Assembly: GCF_900114645.1 (NCBI RefSeq)
Contig: NZ_FOTR01000007.1
Coordinates: forward strand, 62,001-126,000
DNA length: 64,000 nucleotides
From: Gracilibacillus orientalis
Lineage (GTDB): Bacteria > Bacillota > Bacilli > Bacillales > Amphibacillaceae
Direction of reading: 5' to 3'
A program made the translations under genes and the position numbers. The notes below the pieces were generated by a model, which did not search any database, had not been told where the DNA came from, and worked only from the letters and a program-made list of their open reading frames with translations. Below, one piece after another: positions 16,770 through 33,966 of the stretch. Position 1 is the stretch's first letter; each line of letters starts with the position of its first letter.

Positions 16770-17819
16770 CTATATTAAATCCCATGTTAAGGGAGTTCCT
16801 TTTTCGATATCCTGATTTACTATTTTACCTAAACAAACTTGATAATATTTTGGCGCCATGCCAAATCCAGGGCGAATGACTCGTAAATTATCGTGGGTTA
16901 ATGTTTCCCCTTTTTTTACATTTTCACTAACATAAATGGATCTTCGATATTTTTTTGACTGATCTTCTGCTTTGGTAGGACCGTAATGGACTTGCCCCAT
17001 TGCCTGCCAAGCTTTTTTCGTCTCTTGCACTAGTAAATGGAATTCAGCTGGCTCCAATGAAAACTGTGAATCGACTCCCCCATCTTGTCGAGAAAGTGTA
17101 AAATGTTTTTCGATTACAGATGCACCCATGGCAACACTTGCAACAGCAACACCGCTTCCTAGCGTGTGATCTGACAAGCCAATTGGGCATTGAAATAAAT
17201 CATGCATATGTGGAATGGTTTTGATATGACTATTTTCAGGGGTTGCTGGATAGGTGCTCGTGCATTTTAATAAAATGATCTCCCTGCAACCTTCTTCTTT
17301 CGCTGCTGTGACCGATTCATCTATTTCAGCTGCAGTACACATTCCAGTAGAAATAATCATCGGCTTCTTGGTTCTGGCAACTTTGCGTATCAATGGAATA
17401 TCCGTACATTCAAATGAGGCAATTTTATAGCAAGGTACCTCTAAGCTTTCTAAAAAGTCAACAGCCGTCTCATCAAAAGGCGAACTGAATGCGATCATAC
17501 CCAATTCCCTACAACGGCCGAAAATCGATTGGTGCCATTCCCATGGTGTATAAGCTTCTTGATATAAATAATACAGCGATTTGTTTTTCCATGGACTTGT
17601 TTGATCCGAAATGACAAAGTCTTCTTTTTCGATTTCTAATGTCATCGTATCTGCTGTATATGTTTGGATCTTAAGCGCATCTGCTCCTGCCTTGGCAGCC
17701 GCTTCAACAATCTCTAATGCACGATTCAATGATTGATTATGATTTCCCGACATTTCTGCAATCACAAACGGTTCATACTCGGTACCAATTTTTCGATTTT
17801 GTATCGTCACTTCCTTCAT
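16770..17819 (-). CDS. pseI: Nonulosonic (pseudaminic-type) acid synthase, NeuB family
   Basis: Condenses phosphoenolpyruvate with a 6-deoxy hexosamine to form a nine-carbon sialic-like acid. The 349-aa protein has the NeuB TIM barrel (residues about 10-270: AEMSGNH, ALKIQTY, ISTGM, LLKCTSTYP, GLSDHT) and a C-terminal SAF antifreeze-like domain (about 290-349, RRSIYV...GFGMAP). B. subtilis SpsE is the closest functional analogue. The ATG at 17819 overlaps the TGA of the upstream acetyltransferase. It is the last gene of the operon. Confidence 0.92.
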   Translation of the reverse strand: MKEVTIQNRKIGTEYEPFVIAEMSGNHNQSLNRALEIVEAAAKAGADALKIQTYTADTMTLEIEKEDFVISDQTSPWKNKSLYYLYQEAYTPWEWHQSIFGRCRELGMIAFSSPFDETAVDFLESLEVPCYKIASFECTDIPLIRKVARTKKPMIISTGMCTAAEIDESVTAAKEEGCREIILLKCTSTYPATPENSHIKTIPHMHDLFQCPIGLSDHTLGSGVAVASVAMGASVIEKHFTLSRQDGGVDSQFSLEPAEFHLLVQETKKAWQAMGQVHYGPTKAEDQSKKYRRSIYVSENVKKGETLTHDNLRVIRPGFGMAPKYYQVCLGKIVNQDIEKGTPLTWDLI

Positions 17820-18328
17820 AAGCGCCCTCCTATCCAATCTTCTTTGAACAATGCCATTGTTGTCACATCATAAAAGTGATCTTCTTTTACAATATGTTGG
17901 TGTAAAGTACCTTCCACTTTAAACCCCAGCTTTTGGTGAAAATGTAAGCTAGCATGATTGGTTTCCATTACTTCCGCACAAACCTTTCGTATCCCTTGAT
18001 CAAAAATATGATGTAATGCCAAGGTAGCCATTTTAGTTCCTGACCCTTTAGGGGCATTTAATTCTCCAATATAGAAACCCCAAAAACATCGCTGATGCCG
18101 TTTTTGCTTATCAAAAAATTGTACAACTCCGATAGGTTGATCATGTTGGACATAAATAAACACGTCATGATCAGGAGCAGTAGATACATTCTCATACCAA
18201 TTCAAATGTTCCTGCCAAGTGATATCTTTATTGGTATACATATACTGTTTAATTGGTGTACTATTTCGCCATGATAATACTTGTTTTAAATCTTTTTCTT
18301 CTATCTTCCTCAAAAAACAATTAGCCAT
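17816..18328 (-). CDS. pseH: PseH-like GNAT N-acetyltransferase
   Basis: A 170-aa GNAT acetyltransferase expected to acetylate the 4-amino group of the UDP-sugar intermediate. It begins with the PseH-type pattern FLRKIEEKDLKQVLSWRN, and has the acetyl-CoA loop region NAPKGSGTKMA and the C-terminal NHASLHFHQKLGF segment. Counterpart of SpsD in the B. subtilis sps pathway. It sits 4 bases after pseG and overlaps pseI by ATGA, indicating translational coupling. Confidence 0.88.
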   Translation of the reverse strand: MANCFLRKIEEKDLKQVLSWRNSTPIKQYMYTNKDITWQEHLNWYENVSTAPDHDVFIYVQHDQPIGVVQFFDKQKRHQRCFWGFYIGELNAPKGSGTKMATLALHHIFDQGIRKVCAEVMETNHASLHFHQKLGFKVEGTLHQHIVKEDHFYDVTTMALFKEDWIGGRL

Positions 18329-18332
18329 TAGA

Positions 18333-19385
18333 TCACTCCTTCAATATAAAACGTGAAACGGAGCGGTGAGCGACATTTGACCGGAAGACTGATAACCGCT
18401 CTGCTATTTGTCGTAACAGTTGAGGTGCATCCATTAATTGCAATAATGCTTCTTTTATGTCTGCAGATTTTACATCATCATTTTTTCCTAAGTGATGCAC
18501 TAAGCCTTTGACATGCAGATGATCTAATATTTCCGATTGGTTATCTGCGACTTCAAGGGTGATTGTCGGCAATTGCATATAACACCTTTCCCACGTTGTC
18601 GTACCTCCCGCACCAATGGCGATATCTGCTTCCGCCATTAATTCGGCGATACGATTTGTTTGTTCATATAGCCGCATATTTTTATGCAACGTAGTAAAAT
18701 GGTACAGTGCTTGGATTTGCGGATTGGCTGCACCTGTAACTACATCGATTTGCCAATTCTGATCCGGAATCTGAGTGATTGCCTCTAAGGTTTTTAATGT
18801 TTCATTAGTTGGATCACTACCTCCAAAAGAAACAAGAATACGATCGATAGTCTTTCCCTTACTATGTTTTACCTTCGTTGTCACAAATTCTTCTCTTAAT
18901 AAAAGATATTTTGGACCCAATAACAGAACGGTATCAGGTGCCACCCATTGCTGATATCGTCTCACCCTGTTCGCAAACAGATTTTGATCCAGCAAACTGT
19001 CACAAAGATGTTTGCGGTTTGCTAGATCATCAATGACCATCACTTGATGCACATACGGTTTCACGGTGGACTCCCAGCGATAATCTAATGCATAATGATC
19101 TACTACAAAATAATCAAATGTATAATATTGTCGAATATATAGCAACGTTTCCTCCGCGTCCTGTTTCCAATTTTGTTTTAAATCATCTATCGAGGCAGAA
19201 TGAGATAAAACTCGGACTGTAAATCCTTTTCTCTCTATGTGGGCAATTAAATTTCCTGGGAAATGGTGGCAAAAAAATACAACCTCCACACCTTGCATTC
19301 GTAATTGGTCCGCTAACACCAGACAACGCATAACATGACCAGTACCAATTTGTTGAGATGCATCTGCACGAATACCGACTCGCAT
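18333..19385 (-). CDS. pseG: PseG-like UDP-sugar hydrolase
   Basis: Removes UDP from the diacetamido sugar before condensation. GT-B fold; the N-terminal RADASQQIGTGHVMRC contains the catalytic His motif, and FGGSDPTN plus GAGGTTTWE form the nucleotide-binding half. 350 aa. SpsG in B. subtilis is the homologue. The ATG at 19385 starts inside the ribosome-binding region just after the pseF stop (19391), so the genes are coupled. PseG-type hydrolases point to a pseudaminic-type or sps-type route rather than the NeuC-type route. Confidence 0.9.
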   Translation of the reverse strand: MRVGIRADASQQIGTGHVMRCLVLADQLRMQGVEVVFFCHHFPGNLIAHIERKGFTVRVLSHSASIDDLKQNWKQDAEETLLYIRQYYTFDYFVVDHYALDYRWESTVKPYVHQVMVIDDLANRKHLCDSLLDQNLFANRVRRYQQWVAPDTVLLLGPKYLLLREEFVTTKVKHSKGKTIDRILVSFGGSDPTNETLKTLEAITQIPDQNWQIDVVTGAANPQIQALYHFTTLHKNMRLYEQTNRIAELMAEADIAIGAGGTTTWERCYMQLPTITLEVADNQSEILDHLHVKGLVHHLGKNDDVKSADIKEALLQLMDAPQLLRQIAERLSVFRSNVAHRSVSRFILKE

Positions 19386-19390
19386 TAGGA

Positions 19391-20119
19391 TCACCAACCT
19401 TTTTGTTCAATGTTTGCATTGATATTTACCCAGTCTGGATGATGTTCTAATAAAGTGATTACATCTTCCAAAGTAAAGTATCGCCATTTCGGTTCCAATG
19501 ATTTGATGATTTTTTCGATTAATTGAAAATCTTCTAATGTGTCGACAGTTAAACGATAGCTACTATAATTTGTATGATGAAAGACATTGTATATATGGAA
19601 TTGATCAGGATGGTCTCTGATATAGGTAGTAACATGTTCCCGATCACTAGTACGGTTTGCTATTTTACTGATCTTCTCTAACGTCTGCATCGTGAATACT
19701 TCAATATCATAGCCTCTTGGATAAGTTCGTTCCTGAACATTCGTAACATAATCAGCAATCTTCTTTGTGACAAAAGCCTTTATCACTTGATCGATTGTAT
19801 CTGCATCTATTAATGGGCAATCAGCTGTGAAGCGAACAATTACATCAGCTTGCGTCTCTTCTGCTGCTCTAAGATATCGGCTGACCACATCTTTTTCCGA
19901 CCCTCGGACACAACGAACCTTTTCATGCCTACAAAAATCAACAATAGCGTCATCTTTTTTGTTGTTTGTTGTCGCAATAACTATTTCATCTAAATAAGAA
20001 GATTCTCTAATTCGATCTATTTGATACTTAATAAGAGGTTTTCCTACTACTTTTCGTAACACCTTTCCTGGTAATCGTGTAGAACCCATTCTCGCCTGTA
20101 TAATCGCTACAATTTTCAT
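19391..20119 (-). CDS. pseF: CMP-nonulosonate cytidylyltransferase, SpsF/PseF-like
   Basis: Activates the nine-carbon acid with CTP. 242 aa. The N-terminal nucleotide-binding signature is IIQARMGSTRLPGKVLR (residues 6-22); FTADCPLID (near residue 97) supplies the metal-binding acid, and TYPRGYDIEVF is typical of SpsF-type enzymes. It overlaps pseC by four bases (ATGA). Confidence 0.9.
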   Translation of the reverse strand: MKIVAIIQARMGSTRLPGKVLRKVVGKPLIKYQIDRIRESSYLDEIVIATTNNKKDDAIVDFCRHEKVRCVRGSEKDVVSRYLRAAEETQADVIVRFTADCPLIDADTIDQVIKAFVTKKIADYVTNVQERTYPRGYDIEVFTMQTLEKISKIANRTSDREHVTTYIRDHPDQFHIYNVFHHTNYSSYRLTVDTLEDFQLIEKIIKSLEPKWRYFTLEDVITLLEHHPDWVNINANIEQKGW

Positions 20120-21318
20120 GAAAGCACCTCATAATAAGAGAGTACTTTCTTCACAGCCGCAATCACATCATCTGTATCCTCTTCTGACATTTTCGGAAAA
20201 AGTGGTAAGGTAATAATTGCTTGATATAACGATTCCGCTTGAGGGCATAGGCCTTTTTGGTATCCTAACTGTTGATAATAGGGGTGAAGGTACACCGGTA
20301 TATAGTGAACATTCACTCCGATATTTTCTTTTTGTAATGCTCGGAACATTTCTGTTCTACTTACGTTTAATTTTTCCAATTGAAGTCGAATTACATATAA
20401 ATGCCAGCTGGAATTCGTATGTGGTAATTGGTAGGGTGAATGAATCAGATCAAGTTCATGAAATGCTTCATTATATTTGTTTGCGATTGCTCTTCGTATG
20501 GCTAAAAAATCTTCGATTTTATTTAGCTGGCTTAATCCTAGGGCAGCTTGCAAGTCTGTCATCCGGTAATTAAACCCTAGTGACTGCATTTCATAATACC
20601 AAGGTTGATCTGAAACAGCTAATCGATTCTGATCCCTAGTTATGCCATGATTTCTAAAATCTCGTAGTTTTTGATGATAAACAGGATCATCGGTTGTTAT
20701 GATGCCACCTTCACCCGTCGTAATATGCTTGACAGGATGGAAACTGAACATTGTCATATCTGCTAGTGATCCTACCCTTTGTTTATGATAAGTTGCACCT
20801 ATAGCGTGAGCCGCATCAGAGATTAAAGGAATAGAATATTTATCCGCTAACTTTTGTATTTGTTCATAGTCTACTGGTTGACCGGTAAAATCCACCGTTA
20901 TGATCGCTTTTGTTTTATTAGTAAAAAGTGCCTCGATTGCCTTAGCTGATATATTGTAGGTGTTGGGGTCAATATCTGCAAATAGAACATTGCCACCTTG
21001 GTATCGAATGGTATTCGCAGTAGCAGCGAAGGTAAGAGGTGTCGTGATCACTTGATCATTTTTTTGTATCCCTGCTGCAAAACATGCTCCATGAAGGGCT
21101 GCCGTCCCACTGGAAAAGGCAACCGCGTACTTTGCACCAACATAATCTGCTATTCTTTTTTCAAACTGTTCGATTGTTGGTCCAGTTGTCAGGTAGTCAC
21201 TCGTCAACACGTTAAGAACTGCTTGTGTATCAGAGCTGTCTAACCACTGTTTCCCATATGGTAAATAGTTTTCTCTTACTGGTTTCCCGCCATAAAGTGC
21301 TATAGTTTCTTCAGACAT
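20116..21318 (-). CDS. pseC: PseC-like PLP-dependent aminotransferase (DegT/DnrJ family)
   Basis: Transfers an amino group to C4 of the UDP-4-keto sugar. 400 aa. The PLP lysine is in the FHPVKHITTGEGG motif (about residue 189), preceded by ISDAAHAIGA and SSGTAALHG. Typical domain order and length for the DegT family. Counterpart of SpsC. ATG after AAGGATG. Upstream lies the SDR epimerase, 15 bases away. Confidence 0.92.
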   Translation of the reverse strand: MSEETIALYGGKPVRENYLPYGKQWLDSSDTQAVLNVLTSDYLTTGPTIEQFEKRIADYVGAKYAVAFSSGTAALHGACFAAGIQKNDQVITTPLTFAATANTIRYQGGNVLFADIDPNTYNISAKAIEALFTNKTKAIITVDFTGQPVDYEQIQKLADKYSIPLISDAAHAIGATYHKQRVGSLADMTMFSFHPVKHITTGEGGIITTDDPVYHQKLRDFRNHGITRDQNRLAVSDQPWYYEMQSLGFNYRMTDLQAALGLSQLNKIEDFLAIRRAIANKYNEAFHELDLIHSPYQLPHTNSSWHLYVIRLQLEKLNVSRTEMFRALQKENIGVNVHYIPVYLHPYYQQLGYQKGLCPQAESLYQAIITLPLFPKMSEEDTDDVIAAVKKVLSYYEVLS

Positions 21319-21333: not shown

Positions 21334-22278
21334 TTATATAAGATTAGTAGACTGGATCCATTCTTCTGTTTTTCGAACTCCTTCTTCCAAACTGAATTTT
21401 GGCTGCCAGTCTAATAAATTTTTCGCTTTCTCATAGTTACATAATAATTTCGGTATTTCACTTTGAGGATGGATATGTGTGATGTGTTGAAGACGATTTT
21501 GATCTTTAACAATTAATGTCGCTAACTCATTAATACTGATATCTTTACCTAGTCCCGCATTTATAATTTCTCCATTCGTTTCATCCGCATAACCCGATTC
21601 CACTACAAACCGGGCACAATCTTCGACGTACAATAAATCACGTGTTTGTGTTCCATCGCCATAAATCGATAAGGGATTTCCGGTTAATTTATTTTTGATA
21701 AAAATCGCAACAACCCCTCCTTCTCCACCTGTTTTTTGATAGGGACCATACGTATTAAATGGTCGAATTACTGTTACTGGCAAACTATAAGCATGATAAT
21801 AAGATAACACCATATTCTCTGCCGCTAATTTGGATCCTGCGTAAGGTGAAGCTGGTTTTACTGGATTGCTTTCACTGATACCACTATCATTATTTGCTTT
21901 TTCATATACCATACATGTACTTATAAACACCATTTTCACCCAGTGCTTTCGGCATGCTTCTAACACATGAAATGTGCCAATAACATCATTATTAAAAGTG
22001 GTCTCTGGATAGTCGATACTATCTTGAACATTAATACTTGCACCTAAGTGATAACATATATCAAATTGCTTTTTAAATAAATCATTCAAAAGCTGCTTAT
22101 TTTTCATATCAGCTTCTATTAATCCATGAAAAAGTGAATGCTGTTCAAACTCTATTAAATTTTCTTTTCTGCCATTTGATAAATCGTCTAACACCCACAC
22201 ATGATGTTTATCCTCTAATAAGTTTGCTACTACCCAGCGACCGATAAAGCCTGCTCCACCTGTCACGAGAATGTTCAA
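21334..22278 (-). CDS. Extended SDR nucleotide-sugar epimerase/dehydratase
   Basis: An NAD-dependent sugar epimerase-type enzyme of 314 aa. The Rossmann motif is GGAGFIG (residues 7-13) and the catalytic triad includes the STC segment and YAGSK. It resembles UDP-glucose 4-epimerase or dTDP-glucose dehydratase-like proteins; its exact reaction is not readable. It might convert a second sugar of the glycan or modify the same UDP-HexNAc. A TTG start at 22278 is chosen because AAAGGGTGG precedes it. Confidence 0.82.
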   Translation of the reverse strand: MNILVTGGAGFIGRWVVANLLEDKHHVWVLDDLSNGRKENLIEFEQHSLFHGLIEADMKNKQLLNDLFKKQFDICYHLGASINVQDSIDYPETTFNNDVIGTFHVLEACRKHWVKMVFISTCMVYEKANNDSGISESNPVKPASPYAGSKLAAENMVLSYYHAYSLPVTVIRPFNTYGPYQKTGGEGGVVAIFIKNKLTGNPLSIYGDGTQTRDLLYVEDCARFVVESGYADETNGEIINAGLGKDISINELATLIVKDQNRLQHITHIHPQSEIPKLLCNYEKAKNLLDWQPKFSLEEGVRKTEEWIQSTNLI

Positions 22279-22320
22279 CAATACCACCCTTTCTATCGTC
22301 CGTAACTACATTTCCACTAG

Positions 22321-22926
22321 TTACAGATTTTTTGAAATTGTATCTGGGTTTCTCTTTTTGAAAATTCTTAGCGTATAATTTGAAAGTTTTACTGATTCTC
22401 CAGTTGATTCTTCCACTTGTTCAAAACCTAAATTCTCAAATATCTCCCGATAATTACGGGGGAAAATACGCCAATTTTCATATTTTTCCGCTTCTAATGT
22501 TATCAAGTAAGATTTTGTTACCCTTGCAATATGGTCAAACAACCATTCACTGTCTGGATGAATATGTTCCAACACTGCCATCGTGAACACTAGATCATAA
22601 TGATCTTTCGCCATATGCTTTAAAACAGACTCAGCAGGTGCATGGATGATATCCGTATTTTCTGCTAGCTGTGGATAATTCTTATATAGTTGTTCAACCG
22701 CTTCCTGACTAATTTCAATTCCTGTTAACTGTCTATAGTCGTTATCAAATAAATGATATAAGTTTCTCCCAACATTACAACCAATTTCTAATATACGTTG
22801 GTTTCCTTGTATATAATTCTGAATATAATTTAATAAAAAGATACTACGATCTGTTGCTACACGATACGTTTCTGGATAACTGTTTTTTTTCCAATATTCA
22901 TGAATCTCTTTTAATGATTTTTTCAC
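22321..22926 (-). CDS. SAM-dependent methyltransferase
   Basis: A 201-aa class I methyltransferase. Motif I is ILEIGCNVGRN (about residues 44-54), the acidic motif II residue is in TGIEIS and motif IV is DLVFTMAVLEHI. The C-terminus is short. Likely O- or N-methylates a sugar or glycan in this pathway, but the acceptor is unknown. It overlaps the preceding transferase gene by four bases (GTGA), so the genes are coupled. Confidence 0.8.
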   Translation of the reverse strand: MKKSLKEIHEYWKKNSYPETYRVATDRSIFLLNYIQNYIQGNQRILEIGCNVGRNLYHLFDNDYRQLTGIEISQEAVEQLYKNYPQLAENTDIIHAPAESVLKHMAKDHYDLVFTMAVLEHIHPDSEWLFDHIARVTKSYLITLEAEKYENWRIFPRNYREIFENLGFEQVEESTGESVKLSNYTLRIFKKRNPDTISKNL

Positions 22927-24323
22927 TTTTTAGCTCCTTTCGCTAATTCATCCACTAAATTGCGCAGACGTTGACCAGAAGAACTTTGATCAGGATATGC
23001 GTAAGCAAGAAATTTATCTTGAATTTTTTGTACTGATTTTCTCCATTTAGCATGTTTGAAATACAATTGGATAGCATCAGCCAATTTCAATGGATCATTG
23101 TTGACTAACGATTGTAACCCGTTGTAATATCCTGTATAACTCGGAAGTTTCGTGTGTAACATGAATACTGGCTTTCCAACAAGCATGGCTTCTAATGCAA
23201 CAGTTGACGTATAGGACACTACTGCATCAACATGTGGAAGAATATCGTATAGTGAAAGATTTTTTGTAGATTTTATTGATGAATAATGAAGAAGTAATGG
23301 ATGCTGTTCATCATTTGGAAAATCTCTTAGAATGATATTGAGATTTAATGTTTTTTCTATATGCTCTAATAATATTTGCCACTTATTCATATTTCGTTTT
23401 CCTCGAACAATTAGCAGCAACGTTTTTTTCCGTTTATCTAATTTTAAATACTTAATAAATTGCGCTTTGGTAATAGCTGGTTTTTGGTTACTTTGATCAA
23501 ATCTCGGATGACCAATTATTTTCACACCATCTTCTGGGACTCCACTTTGTAAATACCAGTCTTTTTCAAATTGACCATAAACTGCGTCTATAGTTGCCAC
23601 TTTCGGCAGATAACCGAGCTCATTTCCAATAATGCCATGTTGCATACAGATCGTAGGGATGCCTCGCTTTTTCGCTACAAAAGCCATTACCCTACCAAAA
23701 TGATTAGGACTAGACATGATCACCGTTGAAATATTGTTTTTTTTAAGCAATTGTTCCATCATCTCTATCTGATCGATTACAAAGTGGATTTTTTTAATGA
23801 GCATATGTTGAAATACATGATCCTTATAAAGGTGATGATCAGAAAATTGTGTCAAGAGAGTTTGTATTTGCTTTTTAATTTTTGCTTTGGATTCAGCTGT
23901 ACTATGTGACAGATAATCCTGTAAATAGTAAATATTTTGTTGAGCTTGATCATGTGGATACTTATAAGTTTTTATAAAAATGGTTTTGTTTTTCTCAAAA
24001 TATTTCTCGAAGGTTCTAGTTGGTATTCGAAGTAAAGAATCTTCTAAGAAAGCGATGTGTCCATTTTTTGCGTTCTGTGGTGAATTCCATGTTGCTAAAT
24101 AACGGGTAAAAAAATCTTGCACTTGTTTTTGATCAGTAACATGATGATGCAATTCGTTTTGTAAGGAGTCTCTTGCGATTCGATCCCAAATATTGGAATT
24201 ATTACGAATAAGGCTAGGAAAGTGAACCAGATGAGATAATCGATAACCTCGATAGATAACTTCTTTAAAATCCTCAACAAAATCCAGATACAGTGACCAG
24301 TAATTTTCCCTGTAAATGTTCAT
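22923..24323 (-). CDS. Putative surface-glycan transferase (paralogue 2)
   Basis: A 466-aa cytosolic protein with a GT-B-like C-terminal half: CMQHGIIGNELGYLPKV, then DAVYGQFEKDWY, IIGHPRFDQ, and the late donor-site region VDAVVSYTSTVALEAML. These motifs resemble capsule-polysaccharide and CDP-glycerol transferase-like families, and glycosyltransferases acting on CMP or UDP sugars. The neighbouring gene is a diverged copy. I infer that one or both transfer the nonulosonic acid. The N-terminal 150 residues show no known domain. Confidence 0.65.
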   Translation of the reverse strand: MNIYRENYWSLYLDFVEDFKEVIYRGYRLSHLVHFPSLIRNNSNIWDRIARDSLQNELHHHVTDQKQVQDFFTRYLATWNSPQNAKNGHIAFLEDSLLRIPTRTFEKYFEKNKTIFIKTYKYPHDQAQQNIYYLQDYLSHSTAESKAKIKKQIQTLLTQFSDHHLYKDHVFQHMLIKKIHFVIDQIEMMEQLLKKNNISTVIMSSPNHFGRVMAFVAKKRGIPTICMQHGIIGNELGYLPKVATIDAVYGQFEKDWYLQSGVPEDGVKIIGHPRFDQSNQKPAITKAQFIKYLKLDKRKKTLLLIVRGKRNMNKWQILLEHIEKTLNLNIILRDFPNDEQHPLLLHYSSIKSTKNLSLYDILPHVDAVVSYTSTVALEAMLVGKPVFMLHTKLPSYTGYYNGLQSLVNNDPLKLADAIQLYFKHAKWRKSVQKIQDKFLAYAYPDQSSSGQRLRNLVDELAKGAKK

Positions 24324-25824: not shown

Positions 25825-26787
25825 CTAAATCAAATTTGCTCCAGATAACAATTGATAAAGTTCCTTCTTAGAGAGTACTTTCTCGTCTGCAGAACTATAA
25901 GTGCTTGATTTTGCTTTTAGAGCATTGGAATAGGTGATGTCTGCATCTATTGGAATCACAAACATATTGGTAAATTCCCATGCATGTAAAGATTCTTCAT
26001 AGGTCATTAATTCCTCATACATTTTTTCACCTGTTTTCAAACCAATAATTTCAATATTAACTTTTTGATCTGATTTTTCAATTACAATCTCAGCTAAATC
26101 TCCTAATCGAATCACAGGCATTTTCAATACGAAGATTTCTCCTCCTTTTGCTTCTTTTAACGTATTAATCGTAAGTTTCGTTGCTTGTGGTACAGTCATC
26201 ATGAATCTAGTCATGTTTGGATCCGTGACAGTTATCTTTTGTTCTGTCCGTATTTGTTCCTGAAAAAGGGGTATAACTGATCCTCTTGATCCCATCACAT
26301 TACCAAAACGGACACTCGCAAATACAGTGTTATTTTCACTTGATGTTGATATTAAACGTTCACCGATTAATTTTGTTGCACCGTAAGCATTAGTTGGAGA
26401 AATCGCCTTATCTGAACTAGTAAAAATTACTTTTTTAACATTTTTTGCTATTGCTGCTTTCATTACGTGGTAAGTCCCAATAATATTTGTTTGAACAGCC
26501 TCGATTGGATTCTTCTCACAGGTATCGACTCGTTTCATCGCTGCTAATTGCAAGACATAATCAACATTTGTCATTACTTCCTCTACTCTATCTTCATTAC
26601 GAACATCACCGATTACGAATTCAAGTGTATGATGGTCAAATTGTTCTTTTACTAAATGTTGTTTATATTCATCCCGACTAAATATAATAATTTTCTTTGG
26701 CTGCTCTTGTAACAGTTCAGCAATGACACTTGTTCCAATTGTGCCGGTACCTCCAATAACTAATATTGTTTTATCTTTAAAAAACAC
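25825..26787 (-). CDS. pseB: PseB/CapD-like UDP-GlcNAc 4,6-dehydratase
   Basis: First step of the pathway, forming the 4-keto-6-deoxy UDP-HexNAc. About 320 aa. NAD-binding GGTGTIGTS near the N-terminus, catalytic segments TSSDKA and NAYGATK (YxxxK), and DPNMTRFMM typical of PseB/CapD short dehydratases. B. subtilis SpsM is comparable. A GTG start at 26787 with GAGGGA upstream fits the family N-terminus better than an ATG at 26811, which lacks a ribosome binding site. First gene of the operon. Confidence 0.88.
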   Translation of the reverse strand: MFFKDKTILVIGGTGTIGTSVIAELLQEQPKKIIIFSRDEYKQHLVKEQFDHHTLEFVIGDVRNEDRVEEVMTNVDYVLQLAAMKRVDTCEKNPIEAVQTNIIGTYHVMKAAIAKNVKKVIFTSSDKAISPTNAYGATKLIGERLISTSSENNTVFASVRFGNVMGSRGSVIPLFQEQIRTEQKITVTDPNMTRFMMTVPQATKLTINTLKEAKGGEIFVLKMPVIRLGDLAEIVIEKSDQKVNIEIIGLKTGEKMYEELMTYEESLHAWEFTNMFVIPIDADITYSNALKAKSSTYSSADEKVLSKKELYQLLSGANLI

Positions 26788-26811
26788 CGCTGTCCCTCTT
26801 TCCTGTTTCAT

Positions 26812-27660
26812 AAGGCTAATAATAAATGGTACTGTATATGTATATTGAGTAGTCGAAAAAAAGTAACGACCGCAGCCTATTCAAAGTTACCCAATTATCT
26901 GTTAGATCGCAAAAGGAACTTTTTTTCACAAGATATCAAGGTCATTTCACGGTATAACGCACCGACTCAACAAGATTCCATCACTTATCTCGCGACAATA
27001 AAAAAAGGCAAAACCCCCGCCCCCATTCTGATCATCAGATTCGAGATAGATACAAACTTCGAAGTAATGAAAATTCTCTTGGTGTAGCATTGTGCTTGCA
27101 TACGCTACGGCAAGATACTTCGCTTTCACCCGAGGGCACAAGTGCGACATCTGTTCAACCAGGTTTTCACAGTGTCTTCTATGCCATTGGGCACGGCCTT
27201 AGCCTCCTCGTAAAGCAAAGAACGCTTTCCTGCGGGGTCTGCGGTTCGTGCTATTCCCGTATGAGTCTGCGTATCTTGCCTCCGCTTTGCGTAGTGTTCT
27301 GATTGTTGAAAGAAATAATACACGGGAAGTGAATCCCAACATTTCCACTTCAAAGAGATAAAACGCTGGAAATAGCGTAGGCAGAATACGGAGACTCCTG
27401 TGGGAACAGCGCGAGCTGAAGATCCACTTGGTAAAGTGATTTTCTTTACCAAGTTAGCTGAAGCCGTGCCCACTGCATAGAAGACACTGTGAAAACTTGT
27501 TTGAACAGATGTCGCACTTGTGCCCTTGGGTAAAAGCGCAGTATTCTGCCGGAGCGGTTTGTCAGCACTATCCAAGTGAAGAATCGAAGAGAGCAAATCT
27601 ATGTAAGAATTACTTCGCAGTTTATGTTTTTTGTGCTATATTTTTTCTTTTATTGCATAA
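26812..27660. repeat. Intergenic region with a large imperfect inverted repeat
   Basis: No credible gene is present. Two arms, about 27106-27292 and 27363-27555, are imperfect reverse complements over nearly their whole length (shared blocks include GGGCACAAGTGCGACATCT and TTTTCACAGTGTCTTCTATG). They surround a 70-bp centre. The composition is GC-richer than the surroundings. Similar GC-rich palindromic intergenic elements occur in Bacillaceae genomes to my knowledge. No transposase is seen. Confidence 0.7.
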
Positions 27661-27666
27661 AAAAAA

Positions 27667-27684
27667 GAGAGGATTATTCCTCTC
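27667..27684 (-). terminator. Terminator overlapping the end of the 12-Cys gene
   Basis: A GAGAGGA/TCCTCTC stem with a 4-base loop, followed by a T-run on the minus strand. The stem includes the last codons and the stop of the gene ending at 27674. Confidence 0.8.
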
Positions 27685-28528
27685 CTTCTGACTTTTCTTC
27701 TACATTTGTTAAATCTGCTGTTTTAGTTATTTCATTTGATTCTGGTTCTTGATTTGTGATTTCTATATTAGTTTCTGCTTTTGGTTGTTGTTCTGTATAC
27801 ATCATTCCTAATGTTTTAGTTTCACTAGATACATGCTTTTTCTTCTTACTTATTTCCGGTTCGGGGTCTAGAGCGGGAAAAACTACCGGACATTGTACTG
27901 GGATGGTTGGTGTTGGACAAGGCGGAACTGGTAATACATCACGCGGTTGGCAAAAATCTGCTTCTAACTCAATTGTAACCTCATATGTCGATTGAATGCT
28001 TTGGCATAACCTTACTGTAAATGTCACATTTAACTCATCAATTTCAGTAGTTGTTCCTGTATCACAATTCACCGAACATACAAAACAATCTAAATCTGTA
28101 TATGATACATTAATATCAGTTCCTTCTGGTGCACACAGTATCACCTGCTCACAACGAGAAAAGGTTGCCGTACCAATTTCAATTGTACGCCCACCAAGCT
28201 CTGGTATCAGTTGTACATATACGATGACATCAAAGCTTTTACGGATATTAACTACTTGTAAAGTGACTTCCTCTCCATCTATTATAAATACCTGATCTTC
28301 ACGATCTAAAATTACAAACGGATCTTCTTCTGATGGAGTAACCGTACATGTTACGTTATTTAAATCAATATCGTCACATTCTAATTGGGCTCCAGTCACT
28401 GTGTTAATCGGTAACTCCAATCCATCAATATTTAAATCAAAACTTGCCTCATTTAGAAGCCAATCGTATACTTTTTCTGTATTGATGCACAGTAGTTCCT
28501 GCCCACCTGTTATGTGGTTGTTTATCAT
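27674..28528 (-). CDS. 12-cysteine putative spore-surface protein, long form
   Basis: A 284-aa protein. Residues about 1-220 are a paralogue of the protein at 31605-32279, with all 12 cysteines conserved (for example QELLCINTEKVYDW, SRCEQVILCAPEGTD, CFVCSVNC, CPTPTIP). A unique charged tail follows (residues about 223-284, with KKKKH and Glu-rich segments). No signal peptide, so it should act in the cytoplasm of the producing cell, as spore coat proteins do. Start has TGGAGGTG upstream; a sigma-K-like promoter precedes it. Family name unknown to me. Confidence 0.7.
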   Translation of the reverse strand: MINNHITGGQELLCINTEKVYDWLLNEASFDLNIDGLELPINTVTGAQLECDDIDLNNVTCTVTPSEEDPFVILDREDQVFIIDGEEVTLQVVNIRKSFDVIVYVQLIPELGGRTIEIGTATFSRCEQVILCAPEGTDINVSYTDLDCFVCSVNCDTGTTTEIDELNVTFTVRLCQSIQSTYEVTIELEADFCQPRDVLPVPPCPTPTIPVQCPVVFPALDPEPEISKKKKHVSSETKTLGMMYTEQQPKAETNIEITNQEPESNEITKTADLTNVEEKSEGEE

Positions 28529-28563: not shown

Positions 28564-28591
28564 TAGACTATGAAACCACTAGGCAAAACGT
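28564..28591 (-). promoter_or_regulatory. Candidate sigma-K promoter of the long 12-Cys gene
   Basis: On the minus strand AC, 17 bases, then CATAGTCTA, which fits the sigma-K pattern AC-N16/17-CATANNNTA exactly. It lies about 36 bases before the start codon. The copy upstream of the paralogue has the near-identical CATAGGCTA. Confidence 0.55.
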
Positions 28592-28603: not shown

Positions 28604-28630
28604 ACGGTTTATCAAAAACATCATACATTA
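28604..28630 (+). promoter_or_regulatory. Candidate sigma-K promoter of the coiled-coil gene
   Basis: TCAC, 16 bases, then CATACATTA, again an exact match to CATANNNTA. It is back-to-back with the promoter of the leftward gene, only 12 bp away. Confidence 0.55.
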
Positions 28631-28665: not shown

Positions 28666-29040
28666 ATGAACGAATATAAGGATAAATTAGACATAGAAAA
28701 TCTAAGTGAAGTGCTGACTGAATTGCAGAAAGAAGTGCAGTCCATTAAGGGTGATGTGGAGAAATTACGAATAGCGAAATTAATTGATCGATTAGAATTA
28801 TTTATTAAGGAAATGAATGTCGCCAAACAAGATATACATCAACTACAGCAAGGTTTAGAACAAATAAAAACACCAGAAACCTCTAAATCAACACAATACA
28901 AGCAATCCGAGTACAGCAGATTACAAAAAATGCTCCAAACCGTAAAAAAGGAAAACTCGTCTTCCACATTCAACAATTCAAATAATAGGTGGAATACCCC
29001 AACCACTGAGGTAACATCTATTCAAACCAATAGACGTTAA
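28666..29040 (+). CDS. Coiled-coil protein, short form
   Basis: A 124-aa soluble protein. Residues about 8-65 are a predicted coiled coil (LSEVLTELQKEVQSIKGDVE). A conserved box SEYSRLQKMLQTVKK (about 88-102) and a Ser/Asn/Thr-rich tail follow. The coiled coil and the SEYxRLxxML box recur in the 349-aa protein at 32525. AAAGGAGATCG precedes the ATG. No known family; I infer an assembly or tethering partner of the divergent 12-Cys protein. Confidence 0.7.
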   Translation: MNEYKDKLDIENLSEVLTELQKEVQSIKGDVEKLRIAKLIDRLELFIKEMNVAKQDIHQLQQGLEQIKTPETSKSTQYKQSEYSRLQKMLQTVKKENSSSTFNNSNNRWNTPTTEVTSIQTNRR

Positions 29041-29261: not shown

Positions 29262-30485
29262 CTAGCCAGCCTTAATATAGAAAACTTGCGGTGCGATTTG
29301 TTGAATCGTTCGTTTAAAAGTTTGTTGCTCAATCTCATCTAATATTTGATAAAAGGATGTAATTTCTTCTTCTAATAAAGAGAATTTCCGCTTTTGCTTT
29401 CGAACATTTTTTATCGGTTTCTTCCTTGACTTTGAAAGGCTAAGAGGTGGTGATGGCAGAGTTATCGTATTACATAAACCCAAAATATGCTGAAATGAGT
29501 AATCACCTATATCCCATCTGCAATAATGATACAACCTGTCATCATCAGGAATAATCGCTTTATGATGTAATAGCTGATCGATTGTTTGATGTAATTCTGT
29601 TATGGTTGTTGCCTTGAAACCTAATAGATTGGGGAGCTCTGTATCTTCTGTTTCAAAGGGTATATAGGCAATTACCGGCTTATCCAAAAGAAATGCCTCA
29701 ATACCTGATGTACAACCATTATGAATCACCATTTTTGCTGCTAATAACCATTTATTAATAACACCTTCATGGACTACATGTACATTTGATAAGTCCCGAA
29801 ATGCTTGACGATAAGAATTAAAATTCTCGGCAGGATGAGGGCGAATAATAATAGTTAAATGCGAAAAGCGCCTTGCAGTCTTTTCAATCATTTTTAAAAA
29901 AGATTCATACAGTTCTTTAATATGTTGGACAAAGACCGTATCCTTTTTACCTTTTGCTGCATTGTATATAGAAAACCTAGTATTAATTAAAATAAATTCA
30001 CCATATTGTTCTTGTAAGCTTTTCACTTCTTTTTGATATAAAGATCGATATTTTGGTTGTAATAAATCAAACCGCGGATTACCAACCACATGACATTTAT
30101 AAGCCATATCAGGATATGTATTACTAATAACTTGTTTTTGGTGCTCTCCCCAACAATATTCGTGCTCTACAAACTGTAACGTATCTTTTCTCATTCTGTC
30201 TCTGATATATCGTTTCTTTTCAATTAGTAATCCTTCTTCATCTAACTCGACGACGGTTTGACCATTATCAACTGCAGATGTAATCATTCGTTTTCTAAAT
30301 CCTTTTGGGCCGCCTTTTGCAAAATAAATTCCTTGAGGATACTGTGCCAGGGTTTCTGTTACGTTTGGTTGGTCACCAATAATTACCTGATAACCTTGTT
30401 GAATCGCATAATAAGAAAGCAACAGTTTGGCATCTAGTTCACGCACTTTTACTTCTATCGGTAAATAGAGCCAACGATTAGTCAT
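29262..30485 (-). CDS. Surface carbohydrate biosynthesis protein (GT-B-like)
   Basis: A 407-aa protein that begins LPIEVKVRELDAKLLLSYYA, the hallmark of a family annotated as surface carbohydrate biosynthesis proteins. GT-B-like later motifs are GNPRFDLL, LTIIIRPHPAEN and VIHNGCTSGIEAFLLDKPVI. It is likely a cytosolic transferase for a cell- or spore-surface polymer. It overlaps the preceding small gene by 8 bases, so it is the third gene of a short operon. The last 60 residues are basic and charged. Confidence 0.78.
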   Translation of the reverse strand: MTNRWLYLPIEVKVRELDAKLLLSYYAIQQGYQVIIGDQPNVTETLAQYPQGIYFAKGGPKGFRKRMITSAVDNGQTVVELDEEGLLIEKKRYIRDRMRKDTLQFVEHEYCWGEHQKQVISNTYPDMAYKCHVVGNPRFDLLQPKYRSLYQKEVKSLQEQYGEFILINTRFSIYNAAKGKKDTVFVQHIKELYESFLKMIEKTARRFSHLTIIIRPHPAENFNSYRQAFRDLSNVHVVHEGVINKWLLAAKMVIHNGCTSGIEAFLLDKPVIAYIPFETEDTELPNLLGFKATTITELHQTIDQLLHHKAIIPDDDRLYHYCRWDIGDYSFQHILGLCNTITLPSPPLSLSKSRKKPIKNVRKQKRKFSLLEEEITSFYQILDEIEQQTFKRTIQQIAPQVFYIKAG

Positions 30486-30798
30486 TTTGGGTACTTCCTT
30501 GCACTCGATCTTTTAATAACTGAATTACTTCTCCATATCCTTGACGATTGTTGATAATATGACTATCTAGTTTATCCACTAATTCTGAAAGGTTGAGATT
30601 AGGCTGATTATGACTATTGCTATCATCTTTCATAAACAAATACATGATCAGCATTTGCAATGTTTCATTTTCCAAATATACGAAACTATTATTCTTTTTG
30701 TGTTCCTCGTTGCTGATACGCTCCATATAGTCTTTCATATATTGAGTGACCATCTGATTAATATCAAATGAGTTTTGGTCTCTTTTACTCTTTTTCAT
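30478..30798 (-). CDS. Hypothetical 106-aa protein
   Basis: A small, helical, charged protein beginning MKKSKRDQNSFDINQMVTQY. No signal peptide or membrane segment. AGGAGGG precedes the ATG. It overlaps the upstream gene by 14 bases and the downstream transferase by 8, so its product is probably made together with theirs. No family recognised. Confidence 0.65.
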   Translation of the reverse strand: MKKSKRDQNSFDINQMVTQYMKDYMERISNEEHKKNNSFVYLENETLQMLIMYLFMKDDSNSHNQPNLNLSELVDKLDSHIINNRQGYGEVIQLLKDRVQGSTQND

Positions 30799-31372
30799 GT
30801 ATATCGCCCTCCTGTTGTCGATCTGCTACCGAACCGTTTAGGCTAATCTGATTCAAGGAATTAATTCCATCAGGTAATTCATTTCCATAGGTAAATCCTT
30901 GGATCGTTCCCGAGTATGTACTAGTTGGCATCCATTTGATTTGGAAATTGGAAAACGTCAGCGTTTCACCTGGTTCGACTATCTGATTTTGTGTGGGCCT
31001 AAGCCAAAATTCTTTTTTGTCAGATGGTTCATTGACTCGCTCCCAAGCATTTGATAGTATTCGTGTTTGTTTGGAATTTGGATAGAGATATTTTCCTGAA
31101 AAATGAAAGTCGATGTTAGATGTGATTTTTAATCCTATATGTGGATTGGTTAATGGTTTTTCTCCTACATTTTGAATATGAAAGGAACCGATGCCATAAT
31201 TTTCACGACCTTCTTGGTGAAATAGCTGATAGGAAGATGTAAAGTAACAAATAATCTTTAAATGTTCTGTTACACCTAAATCTTGAATTAAACCTTTAAT
31301 TTGATCTAAATACGATGATTGCTCCTCTTGCCAGTCGATTAATTTCTGTTGAATTTCTTGATGATTAGACAT
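30785..31372 (-). CDS. Hypothetical protein with beta-rich C-terminal domain, 195 aa
   Basis: The N-terminal 40 residues are helical (HQEIQQKLIDWQEEQSSYLD). The remainder looks like a beta-sandwich with GSFHIQNVGEKPLTNPHIGL and VEPGETLTFSNFQIKW, reminiscent of extracellular or CARDB/DUF11-type adhesin folds, though there is no signal peptide. ATG at 31372 follows AAAGAGGTG. First gene of the three-gene operon. A coat-associated structural role is an inference. Confidence 0.6.
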   Translation of the reverse strand: MSNHQEIQQKLIDWQEEQSSYLDQIKGLIQDLGVTEHLKIICYFTSSYQLFHQEGRENYGIGSFHIQNVGEKPLTNPHIGLKITSNIDFHFSGKYLYPNSKQTRILSNAWERVNEPSDKKEFWLRPTQNQIVEPGETLTFSNFQIKWMPTSTYSGTIQGFTYGNELPDGINSLNQISLNGSVADRQQEGDIHEKE

Positions 31373-31563
31373 ACAAGCACCTCTTTCGTTTATCATGCTG
31401 CTTTATAAAAAAAGCTCAAGAGCGCTCTAAAAACGTAACGACTGTGCCCGTGCCATACAGGTAGAGTAACTAAGGCTCTGTTTTGTCACCAATCGCCTAG
31501 TTTCTGGCGCTCAGAGCTAGACATCTCTAAATATGCTTTCTTACGTTATCTAATAAAAAAAAG

Positions 31564-31604: not shown

Positions 31605-32279
31605 TTATCCGTTATTCCCGTTACTAGGGAAAACTACAGGGCATTGTGCTGGAATAGTTGGTGTCGGGCATGGTGGGAATGGTAAGATGTCACGTGGTTG
31701 ACAGAATTCTGCTACAAGCTCTAATGTTACATCAAAAGTAGACTGGATGCTTTGGCATAGACGTACAGTTACGGTAACATCTAATTCATCTGCTTCAGTT
31801 GTAGTTCCTTCATCACATGCAGCAGTACATACAAAGCAATTTAAATCTGTATACGATACATCTATGTCTGTTCCTTCTGGTGCACAAAGAATCACTTGCT
31901 CACAACGAGTAAATTCTGCCGTACCAACTTCTAACTGACTGCCACCAAGTTCTGGCAATAAGTTTACAAAAACAGTTACTTCGAAATTTTTACGAATGTT
32001 AACAATTTGCAATGTTACTTCTTCATCATCCACGATAAACACTTGATTTTCACGGTCCAAGACAACGATTGGATCTGTTTCAGCAGGAGCAACTTCACAT
32101 GTCACTGTGTCTAAATCAATATCAGCACATTCTAACTGGTCACCTGTTACAGGGTTAATTGGTAATTCTAAGTCTGGTAAGTTTAAATCGAATGTTGCTT
32201 CATTCAAAATCCAGTCATACACCTTCTCTGTATTTATACACAGAAGCTCCTGCCCTCCTGTTAAATTATCCATTTGCAT
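31605..32279 (-). CDS. 12-cysteine putative spore-surface protein, short form
   Basis: A 224-aa paralogue of the protein at 27674-28528, lacking the charged tail and ending after CPVVFPSNGNNG. The 12 cysteines are spaced identically; proline-rich CPTPTIPAQCP lies near the end. Acidic, beta-rich, no signal peptide. The start at 32279 (or an ATG two codons later) follows TTGGAGGTG. Cys-rich mother-cell proteins that self-assemble on spores are common, but I cannot match this to a named family such as the Ena appendage proteins. Confidence 0.7.
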   Translation of the reverse strand: MQMDNLTGGQELLCINTEKVYDWILNEATFDLNLPDLELPINPVTGDQLECADIDLDTVTCEVAPAETDPIVVLDRENQVFIVDDEEVTLQIVNIRKNFEVTVFVNLLPELGGSQLEVGTAEFTRCEQVILCAPEGTDIDVSYTDLNCFVCTAACDEGTTTEADELDVTVTVRLCQSIQSTFDVTLELVAEFCQPRDILPFPPCPTPTIPAQCPVVFPSNGNNG

Positions 32280-32314: not shown

Positions 32315-32342
32315 TAGCCTATGACAACACACCAAAAAATGT
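32315..32342 (-). promoter_or_regulatory. Candidate sigma-K promoter of the short 12-Cys gene
   Basis: On the minus strand AC, 17 bases, CATAGGCTA. Distance to the start codon (about 36 bases) and surrounding sequence match the paralogous promoter at 28564. Confidence 0.55.
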
Positions 32343-32358
32343 TTTAGTGAATTTGCGG

Positions 32359-32401
32359 AAATATCATGATATTTGGGAAGATAGGCGAATATCATATGAT
32401 A
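32359..32401. promoter_or_regulatory. Two perfect palindromes in the divergent spacer
   Basis: AAATATCATGATATTT (32359-32374) and TATCATATGATA (32390-32401) are both perfect palindromes sharing TATCAT half-sites, with centres 29 bp apart. They lie between the two divergent promoters and could bind a regulator. Absent from the shorter spacer of the other module. Confidence 0.4.
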
Positions 32402-32468
32402 AAAAGCCACAATCACCGTGAGTTTCATCAATACTAGTTATTAAATTGAATAAAACAGCACATTTGTC

Positions 32469-32495
32469 ACGAATTGGTGTTTCATCAATATTATA
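32469..32495 (+). promoter_or_regulatory. Candidate sigma-K-like promoter of the long coiled-coil gene
   Basis: TCAC, 16 bases, then AATATTATA, which differs from CATANNNTA at the first position only. It lies about 30 bases before the start codon. Confidence 0.4.
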
Positions 32496-32524
32496 TTAAT
32501 GTGCAGTAAAAAGGGTGAATCGTC

Positions 32525-33574
32525 ATGTATCAATATAGGCTATATAATTTTGAAGATATTGAAAAATTAAATCGGGATCTCGAAGTGTATAAAAAAGCAA
32601 TAGAAACATGGAACGAAAGTGAATCCGTTCTATATATGGAAGCCCAGGAAGAACTAGAAGCAACGAAAAAAGAATTAGAAAAGTACAAAGGAGAAATGAA
32701 GGTTATGGAAGAAACCTATCAAAAGCAAATGCAGGGCTATGAACACAAGGAACAGAAAGTAGCTGCTCAAATCCATGCGATTAACCACTCCATTCAACAA
32801 TTAAAAAAAGATGTTCACAGCATAAAAGATGATGTGAAAGAAATACGTATCAATGAATTGCTTGAAAAAGTAGATCAAATAATTGGAAATACAGACACAG
32901 AATTATATGATGTAAAAAAGCAAATAAGTAATCAGAAAAATATCGTTAATCAAGTTAAAAATCAATCACAACCAACCAAACAACAGAAACAAACGAAAAG
33001 ACGAACTAGTGAATATCGACGATTGCATAACATGTTGAAAACGGCAAAACCCAAAAGTAATGTCACTCCACCACCTAGTAATAGCTCGATGACAAATCCA
33101 AAACCGCGCCGTCAACCAGGTAATACGAATATGACTACTGTCCAAAATGGTAAGAAAACATTCCATAATGCAAAGTACGAGTTAAACAAAAACATCATTG
33201 TCAAAAAGAAAACAGCGAATACTGAACAAAAAAATAAAAATAGCAGAGTAAAAAATAAAGACGGGGTAAAAGAAGAGATTAAAGAAAAAGCCAAAGAAGA
33301 GAATAATAGCATCCCAGAAAATGAAGTGAACGAAAAATATACCCAGCAAGTGAAGCAAGTACAGGAAGAACCTCAACAACCAGCTGTCAATCCTGAAATA
33401 AAAGATCAAAAATCAGTCGTTGCTCCAGAGCCCAAAAAACAAGAACCAGCTGTTGAACCAGAACCAAAAATAGCGGTTGAAAAACAAGAATCCAAAACAA
33501 GACAAGAGGAAAATAACTCTCCAAATGGCATAAAAAAAACATGGTTATTAGCAAAATCATTATGGAAAAAGTAA
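32525..33574 (+). CDS. Coiled-coil protein, long form with basic and Pro/Glu-rich tail
   Basis: A 349-aa protein. Residues about 5-125 form a long coiled coil, then SIKDDVKEIRINELLEKVDQ matches the short-form paralogue, and SEYRRLHNMLKTAKPK (about 160-175) is the shared box. The middle is basic and Asn/Lys-rich; the last third has repeated EPKKQEPAVEPEPK-type Pro/Glu segments and a short C-terminal helix WLLAKSLWKK. No signal peptide. Reminiscent of disordered spore-coat scaffold proteins. It overlaps the peptidase gene by 13 bases. Confidence 0.75.
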   Translation: MYQYRLYNFEDIEKLNRDLEVYKKAIETWNESESVLYMEAQEELEATKKELEKYKGEMKVMEETYQKQMQGYEHKEQKVAAQIHAINHSIQQLKKDVHSIKDDVKEIRINELLEKVDQIIGNTDTELYDVKKQISNQKNIVNQVKNQSQPTKQQKQTKRRTSEYRRLHNMLKTAKPKSNVTPPPSNSSMTNPKPRRQPGNTNMTTVQNGKKTFHNAKYELNKNIIVKKKTANTEQKNKNSRVKNKDGVKEEIKEKAKEENNSIPENEVNEKYTQQVKQVQEEPQQPAVNPEIKDQKSVVAPEPKKQEPAVEPEPKIAVEKQESKTRQEENNSPNGIKKTWLLAKSLWKK

Positions 33575-33966
33575 TCACTTTATCCAAAGACATATATCAG
33601 AAAGTGATTGCAGAAGGTGAAAATAATTTGCCTTATGAAGCATGCGGACTAATAGCTGGTTACCATCATCAAGTAACGTCATTTTGGCCATTGCAAAATC
33701 AATTAAACTCAAGCACTCGCTTTTTTGTTCATAAACAAAAGGTGATCGAAACAGTAAAATGCATTGAAAACAGGAAGGAACAAGTTTTAGCTGTTTTTCA
33801 TACTCATCCTTCAACTAAGCCTGTTCCTTCTCCATATGATTTAAGCCATCATCCAGATGACCAGGTTGGTATGGTGATTGTTTCCTATAAATATTCCCTG
33901 CCGCAAATAAAGTGGTATCAGATTAAAAATAAAATCTACAAAGAATGTACCATCATTATAAACTGA
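33562..33966 (+). CDS. JAMM/MPN-type metallopeptidase
   Basis: A 134-aa Mov34/MPN domain protein with all zinc ligands: upstream Glu in YEACGLIAG and the HTHP-x7-SPYD motif (HTHPSTKPVPSPYD), so it should be an active isopeptidase or peptidase. The ATG at 33562 lies inside the last codons of the coiled-coil gene (ATGGAAAAAGTAA), implying coupled translation. Bacterial JAMM proteins cleave protein tags or thiocarboxylate carriers; I see no ThiF/E1 or ubiquitin-like gene here. Substrate could be the adjacent coat-like proteins, an inference. Confidence 0.82.
   Translation: MEKVITLSKDIYQKVIAEGENNLPYEACGLIAGYHHQVTSFWPLQNQLNSSTRFFVHKQKVIETVKCIENRKEQVLAVFHTHPSTKPVPSPYDLSHHPDDQVGMVIVSYKYSLPQIKWYQIKNKIYKECTIIIN

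Follow-up and report, generated by a model that had tools for sequence, protein, structure and literature searches.

We analyzed a stretch of 64,000 nt from Gracilibacillus orientalis, a salt-loving spore former with a genome of 4.6 Mb (labelled G000 in our genome samples). The whole stretch, positions 62,001-126,000 of the forward strand of contig NZ_FOTR01000007.1 (GCF_900114645.1), is referred to as the window. It contains a packed operon of ten genes on the minus strand (16770-26811), predicted to make a nonulosonate of the pseudaminic acid (Pse) type, beside the genes of two proteins with 12 cysteines (12-Cys; cys1 and cys2) that appear by family to be spore-shell proteins. Pse operons next to spore-shell genes are also seen in related genera. 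This suggests spores, and not flagella, as the target of the sugar. We find it probable that the nonulosonate is destined for the spore surface, i.e. that the window holds a sporulation surface-glycosylation locus, and given such a sugar on the spore, Pse is clearly favored over an acid of the legionaminic (Leg) type. The acceptor, the timing and the sugar of this locus are predictions.

The 12-Cys family is already known (NF052457, the BMQ_0737 family). What is new is the recurrence, within the family Amphibacillaceae, of a Pse operon beside BMQ_0737-type shell genes, as a spore-sugar locus that resembles sps of Bacillus subtilis and has Pse as its predicted product. In the accessible parts of the open-licence literature, B. 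subtilis is the only species we found described with a spore nonulosonate, and no pairing of a Pse operon with Cys-rich spore-shell genes was found.

Linkage of the sugar operon to the 12-Cys genes

In the family sample (146 genomes, drawn from a larger group), 12-Cys is found in 49 genomes, the pseudaminic acid synthase PseI over its cut-off in 32, and both in 26; PseI-like matches below the cut-off in 59 further genomes are left out of this count. PseI lies 2.8-14.6 kb from a 12-Cys gene in 16 of the 26 genomes, from five genera, so the comparison of gene neighborhoods proposed in an earlier note on this DNA does link the two across genera. A rough binomial estimate for such proximity by chance is 1e-25, on which we do not lean, since it takes no account of relatedness and one genus supplies 11 of the 16 genomes. 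Among the other ten, typed by eye on a gene map of the fetched stretches, five have a flagellar-type PseI (G063, G091, G082, G060, G031) and one (G035) a PseI of another type with a flagellin-like match nearby. In the last four (G068, G112, G114, G141) the window-type operon is at a contig end or on a fragmented contig; one 3.2-kb contig of G114 holds cys1, a piece of PseI and two further genes of the window, o203 and spc. 12-Cys is present in all 20 genomes that have a window-type operon; of the six genomes with PseI and without 12-Cys, none has an operon of this type.

We also collected 74 named 12-Cys loci (L labels, 1.39 Mb in all, some contigs short), in which neighbors were counted by similarity thresholds and pse genes within 10 kb. 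At least two pse genes are found at 26 of the loci, in three arrangements: same-strand downstream, same-strand upstream, and convergent. On a 12-Cys tree, in which paralogues of one genome are separate rows and six short-contig loci are unlabelled, their presence or absence changes at least seven times. Because of these changes and the three arrangements, the pairing is not one inherited block. The gene spc is found at 22 of the 74 loci, namely 20 of the 26 with at least two pse genes and two short contigs. It is missing from six pse loci, all of them convergent.

The 12-Cys family is restricted to genomes with SpoIVA in the samples searched. The earlier note had reasoned that homologues in non-sporulating relatives would speak against a spore layer. 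In the class sample (398 genomes, 129 of them without SpoIVA) all 61 genomes with 12-Cys have a SpoIVA match (Fisher 3.9e-12), and 59 of the 61 are over the NF052457 cut-off. In the family sample SpoIVA is matched in 49 of 49 12-Cys genomes; only five of the 146 lack it, and these are also without 12-Cys, a result that does not reach significance by itself (p 0.17). The scan for named loci also matched 12-Cys on contigs outside this tally: two from Clostridiales metagenome-assembled genomes (L084, L087) and a short one filed under Roseburia (L047, Roseburia sp. 1XD42-34). The latter carries a Bacillaceae-like cys1-o203-spc locus with cys1 72% identical, and is probably mislabelled or contaminating. 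By 12-Cys the nearest named relatives of the host are Gracilibacillus suaedae (96% identical) and G. lacisalsi (95%).

Other sugar genes accompany 12-Cys elsewhere. Ten named loci (L065-L068, L071, L072, L074, L076, L077, L082) hold a GFO/IDH oxidoreductase, a hexapeptide acetyltransferase and a PseC-like aminotransferase, and eight of them a UDP-GlcNAc 6-dehydrogenase-like gene; one member was scanned per cluster and the aminotransferase was assigned by BLAST only. The predicted pathway would be of the UDP-2,3-diamino-uronate type. By the thresholds used above, none of the ten loci has two or more pse genes. A collagen/BclA_C/NTTRR-F1 cluster (BclA_C 160 bits against a cut-off of 38 in the single member scanned, from L065) is found in nine of them, all except L071, and also in L037 and L058. 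Cys-rich and collagen-like genes are clustered with glycosyltransferases in many spore formers (PMC7333573; here and below, papers are cited for their accessible parts), so the collagen-linked half of this picture has a precedent. The CsxA and ExsY/BclA exosporium clusters of that paper resemble the window in combining a Cys-rich shell gene with glycan genes; unlike them, the window contains a Pse pathway, and its locus genes scanned include no collagen gene.

We tentatively suggest, at somewhat less than an even chance, that the BMQ_0737-type shell with o203 is a conserved chassis into which genera plug differing sugar cassettes, Pse or diamino-uronate, and that one cell can run separate flagellar and spore Pse pathways. 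The Pse side, usually with the candidate transferase gene spc, would comprise Gracilibacillus, Oceanobacillus, Thalassobacillus, Alkalibacillus and others, and the diamino-uronate side, mostly with the BclA-like cluster, Paraliobacillus ryukyuensis and several Sediminibacillus and Ornithinibacillus species.

The sugar operon, the shell genes and their neighbors

The features of the locus are listed in Table 1. In the operon, no gap between adjacent genes exceeds 33 nt and some genes overlap; the order (5' to 3') is PseB-like, gtA, gtB, methyltransferase, short-chain dehydrogenase/reductase (SDR), PseC, cytidine monophosphate (CMP) transferase, PseG, PseH and PseI. The pathway, the transferase-like paralogues, the methyltransferase, spc, the Cys-rich and coiled-coil proteins and the JAMM peptidase are all where the earlier note had placed them. 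It had also read the pathway as complete, pseB/C/H/G/I/F. This holds for PseC, PseH, PseG and PseI, which all exceed their NCBIfam equivalog cut-offs; PseB and PseF belong to the right superfamilies and do not reach theirs. The likely start of the PseB-like gene is a GTG at about 26787. Of the 19 other window-type stretches fetched, 18 have a match to the extra SDR, and the 19th (L122) starts at pseC, at a contig end.

Table 1. Features of the locus, in window coordinates.
Feature	Position	Strand	Evidence
PseI, pseudaminic acid synthase	16770..17837	-	TIGR03586 513.2 bits, cut-off 340.25; NeuB + SAF domains
PseH-type N-acetyltransferase	17816..18328	-	TIGR03585 139.3 bits, cut-off 93.1
PseG-type UDP-sugar hydrolase	18333..19397	-	TIGR03590 304.9 bits, cut-off 153.55
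CMP transferase, PseF/SpsF-like	19391..20119	-	PF02348 128 bits; TIGR03584 51.9, under cut-off 205.7
PseC aminotransferase	20116..21318	-	TIGR03588 501.7 bits, cut-off 423.5
Extra SDR, not a canonical Pse gene	21334..22287	-	RmlB/LegB/GalE matches, all below cut-off
Methyltransferase	22321..22926	-	best match TIGR03587 (Pse biosynthesis-associated methylase) 48 bits, under cut-off 112
gtB, GT-B-like transferase	22923..24323	-	weak BFO_1060-type and TIGR04396 matches, both below cut-off; HP, EDG motifs
gtA, GT-B-like, gtB paralogue (35% identical)	24328..25812	-	HP motifs, no [DE][DE]G
PseB-like UDP-GlcNAc 4,6-dehydratase	25825..26811	-	TIGR03589 300 bits, under cut-off 407.75; S-x9-Y-x3-K triad
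Conserved leader core	26837..26871	-	GGTCGTTAC-N16-AATATACATA; once in genome
Two tandem RWWTRGGY boxes, GerE-like	26875..26896	-	
cys2, 12-Cys BMQ_0737-family spore protein, extra C-terminal tail	27674..28528	-	NF052457 200.1 bits, cut-off 71
Sigma-K-like promoter of cys2	28564..28591	-	strict match at -63
Sigma-K-like promoter of cc2	28604..28630	+	strict match at -62
cc2, small coiled-coil-like protein, cc1-related	28666..29040	+	
spc, surface carbohydrate biosynthesis protein	29262..30485	-	TIGR04396 362 bits, cut-off 125
o106, small protein, overlaps o203 and spc	30478..30798	-	
o203, frequent 12-Cys partner	30785..31396	-	N-terminal helix + beta-sandwich, AlphaFold2 pLDDT 88
cys1, 12-Cys BMQ_0737-family spore protein	31605..32279	-	NF052457 207.1 bits, cut-off 71
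Sigma-K-like promoter of cys1	32315..32342	-	strict match at -63
cc1, coiled-coil-like protein, divergent from cys1	32525..33574	+	
JAMM/MPN peptidase	33541..33966	+	PF14464 61.2 bits, cut-off 25; motif HTHP-x6-S-x2-D

The candidate transferases can be compared with the nonulosonate transferases GtfS and TFUB4_00887 of Tannerella forsythia (PMC6388019), with which they share the HP motif and, in gtB and spc, [D/E][D/E]G, although these motifs are short and easily met by chance. Against the BFO_1060 glycosyltransferase model (cut-off 200 bits), gtA, gtB and spc score 46.6, 36.7 and 88.2, all below, and their role as transferases is that of candidates. No paper on BFO_1060 was found in the open-licence literature.

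Both 12-Cys proteins, 75% identical to each other, exceed the cut-off of NF052457, the 'BMQ_0737 family morphogenetic spore coat protein', which supports their assignment as spore-shell proteins. The earlier note had taken them for structural proteins of the spore surface; the shell family agrees with this, and it is a family that already had a name. An outermost position has been inferred for BMQ_0737 of B. megaterium only (PMC4656864). As differences from the founder BMQ_0737, the window has two paralogues within a sugar locus, and the tail of cys2 is glutamate-rich (by eye). A BMQ_0737 mutant of B. megaterium is reportedly the subject of a 2014 paper. The structure model of cys1 consists of beta structure only, with long strands (predicted local distance difference test, pLDDT, 87.5), and has no Foldseek match in the PDB at E <=0.001; nor does the 12-Cys profile match any sequence of a solved structure in a sequence search. 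We do not name the cys2 tail as an acceptor of O-glycosylation, since its fraction of serine and threonine is 0.02-0.22 across eight Gracilibacillus cys2.

By threshold count, the partners at the 74 named loci are o203 (61 loci), jamm (40) and cc1 (25); by clustering they are o203/o106 (62), jamm (38) and cc1-like (39). Structure matches of o203 were uninformative: 35 chains at E <=0.001 with mixed beta-sandwich titles and template modeling (TM) scores of about 0.24-0.43 on the query. A sequence search of o203 against solved structures gave one match, at chance level.

A few further observations concern the shell genes and their surroundings. Between cys2 and the leader of the Pse operon (27090-27600) lies an inverted-repeat element resembling a miniature inverted-repeat transposable element, with 124 BLAST pieces in its own genome. 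Across 14000-36000 of the window there was no Rfam match with E values up to 1. A sulfotransferase-like gene is near 12-Cys at 11 of the 74 named loci (L023, L026, L027, L028, L042, L043, L054-L057, L085; PF03567 in the single member scanned, from L056), which suggests a possible sulfation of the spore glycan. NF052457-like domains also occur within much longer open reading frames (ORFs) of about 650-990 aa, against roughly 225 aa for the shell proteins, in G086:C11, G134:C7, G017:C27, G112:C69, G035:C3, G314, G498 and G446. Finally, the host has two CotZ-family genes (PF10612) over cut-off, at G000:C14:178244-178681 and G000:C28:50717-51151, and therefore also has Cys-rich proteins of the B. 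subtilis crust type.

Promoters and the operon leader

The motif AC-N15-18-CATANNNTA, which we take to be a sigma-K-like consensus, matches strictly nine times in the whole window, both strands counted. The earlier note had described sigma-K-like promoters in the locus. They are found before cys1, cys2 and cc2; in contrast, there is no strict match in the 300 bp 5' of cc1, o203, spc or pseB. At the named loci, the motif is within 150 bp of 55 of 87 12-Cys genes, mostly at -59 to -69, compared with 45 of 841 other ORFs of the same loci, a control count that may be low because it uses longest-ORF starts, whereas the 12-Cys starts were set by homology. Among the partners, the strict motif is found before 0 of 47 o203, 0 of 33 jamm and 0 of 27 cc1, and the pseB row of the tally (n=5) is too small to count.

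The sugar operon has a leader of its own, with the general form of about GGTCNTTAAC-N16-AATATACATA, and the host genome has a single occurrence of its relaxed form. Versions of it, recognized by eye and some of them diverged, are 5' of the operon in seven named genera: Gracilibacillus, Sediminibacillus, Oceanobacillus, Ornithinibacillus, Compostibacillus, Aquibacillus and Alkalibacillus. Two matches of a fuzzy search away from the operon (L076, L095) were dropped as chance. Five leaders, including that of the window, contain two exact RWWTRGGY boxes 13-14 bp apart, presumably the GerE consensus, and most of the others have one exact or two near boxes. In the 1.39 Mb of named loci there are six exact tandems, four of them in a leader, against about 2.6 expected (a chance rate of 0.12 per 64 kb on both strands). 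No paper for the RWWTRGGY box as a GerE site was found in the open-licence literature. Because of these tandem, putatively GerE-like boxes, we propose that the sugar operon is under late mother-cell control.

Destination and identity of the sugar

Pse is best known from flagellin (PMC7439481, PMC13317340), and one could expect the window operon to supply it there. However, a second Pse operon exists elsewhere in the same genome, between fliD and hag (flagellin), at G000:C16:125693-132933. It contains pseI, a PseG-PseH fusion, pseF (by eye), pseC, pseB, a Maf-type transferase and one small gene, and flagellin, FliD_C, Maf and MptE-like domains are confirmed in the region. The two operons thus share the PseB, C, F, G/H and I functions. 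They differ in the Maf gene, in position, in the fusion of the PseG-like and PseH-like domains into one protein of 476 aa (G000:C16:126735-128165), and in PseI, which is over the cut-off in both copies and only 49% identical between them. Further, hag, fliD and maf have no match in the 19 other window-type stretches fetched, and no flagellar family is over cut-off among the window genes scanned (16770-35060). That a divergent Pse operon with Maf sits between flagellin and fliD supports the conclusion that the window operon is not the flagellar copy. Beside the flagellar region, at G000:C16:117009-120023, there are genes which by eye look like those of TasA-type fibre proteins and of a SipW-type signal peptidase.

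The PseI tree gives a less simple picture. The flagellar copy of the host is deeply separated from the window copy, while six flagellar-type PseI fall among the spore-type ones on the window side; two tree rows (L097, L117) are labelled flagellar by similarity and have no hag in their stretch. We therefore rejected PseI phylogeny as a marker of destination. PseI copies have probably been swapped between flagellar and spore uses. A third kind of PseI locus, neither of window nor of Maf type, is seen in L107 (G073:C2) and L120 (G035:C23), where PseI, PseG, PseF, PseC and an SDR are near a flagellin-like match. Some flagellar loci of the family thus use a window-side PseI, and these two loci also speak for flagellin; set against the separate flagellar operon of the host, we regard a flagellar destination of the window operon as highly improbable.

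Alternatively, the operon may make a sugar for a vegetative surface polysaccharide or capsule and adjoin the shell genes without a shared function. Several results count against a spore destination, some of them in keeping with this. The leader is not a classical sigma-K promoter: neither a sigma-K nor a sigma-E promoter was found for pseB of the window, and in relatives a looser sigma-K form is within 300 bp of only 3 of 19 pseB starts (L029, L056, L057). Further, the leader was not seen in the inspected sequences 5' of pseB from Thalassobacillus (L042, L043), Halobacillus (L056, L057) and Tenuibacillus (L070). Even for the shell genes, the strict sigma-K motif is found mostly in the window-like 12-Cys clade, where 50 of 58 genes have it, compared with 5 of the 29 divergent ones, and the promoter control above favors the 12-Cys set. 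Fewer than two pse genes are nearby at 48 of the 74 named loci, some on short contigs, so the shell does not need the Pse sugar. TIGR04396 and GT-B proteins are, as general knowledge, also found in capsule loci. On the other hand, a pairing in three arrangements that changed at least seven times on the 12-Cys tree is not one inherited block, spc lies within the overlapping o203-o106-spc run and tracks pse, and several leaders have tandem GerE-like boxes. A vegetative sugar is in our view quite unlikely.

The best comparison for a spore destination is with the sps genes of B. subtilis, which act in the mother cell under the control of sigma-K and provide the spore crust with its legionaminic acid (PMC7439481). 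Like sps and spsM, the window locus would be a nonulosonate pathway devoted to the spore surface, with corresponding enzyme steps predicted from its genes, and the TagB-like SpsB beside the B. subtilis pathway has its parallel in the GT-B-like gtA and gtB. There are also clear differences. The first enzyme is inside the window operon, whereas spsM is a separate locus; the promoter is a different one, without a strict sigma-K match; and the operon is beside BMQ_0737-type genes, a family without a match in B. subtilis in a control search. In B. subtilis spsI-L are rhamnose genes, while no rml set is over cut-off among the operon genes scanned. The earlier note had drawn the parallel to sps with a legionaminic-type acid; here the predicted sugar is of the Pse type instead.

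A Leg-type acid would be compatible with a spore destination, and the equivalog matches to Pse enzymes could mislead. PseB and PseF are the two enzymes below cut-off, the SDR has a LegB match (174 bits, under the cut-off of 475), and the sps pathway also uses UDP-linked sugars (PMC7439481). Against this stand the four enzymes over their Pse cut-offs, and the tyrosine of the PseB triad, found in the window and in 31 of the 32 hits whose best match is the window PseB (one is unreadable and some are duplicates from the same genome), where SpsM has methionine (PMC7439481). The triad residue alone does not decide, since CapE, also an inverting enzyme, has methionine as well. We consider a Leg-type acid unlikely.

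For a Pse-type spore sugar, we infer its identity, the transferring protein and its carrier as follows. The ten-gene operon would make a CMP-activated nonulosonate, most likely of the pseudaminic acid type, and gtA, gtB and the TIGR04396 protein spc of the o203 gene run are candidates for its transfer. The sugar would end up on the outermost layer of the spore. The Cys-rich units of that layer may be the two BMQ_0737-family proteins, and o203, o106 and the coiled-coil proteins may be their partners.

If this is true, sialic-acid-like sugars would be widespread on spores, in several genera, and one would have transferase candidates by name, as well as a rule, open to testing, by which spore surfaces diversify. 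The presence of divergent flagellar and spore-linked Pse operons in one genome makes the routing of the sugar directly testable by genetics.

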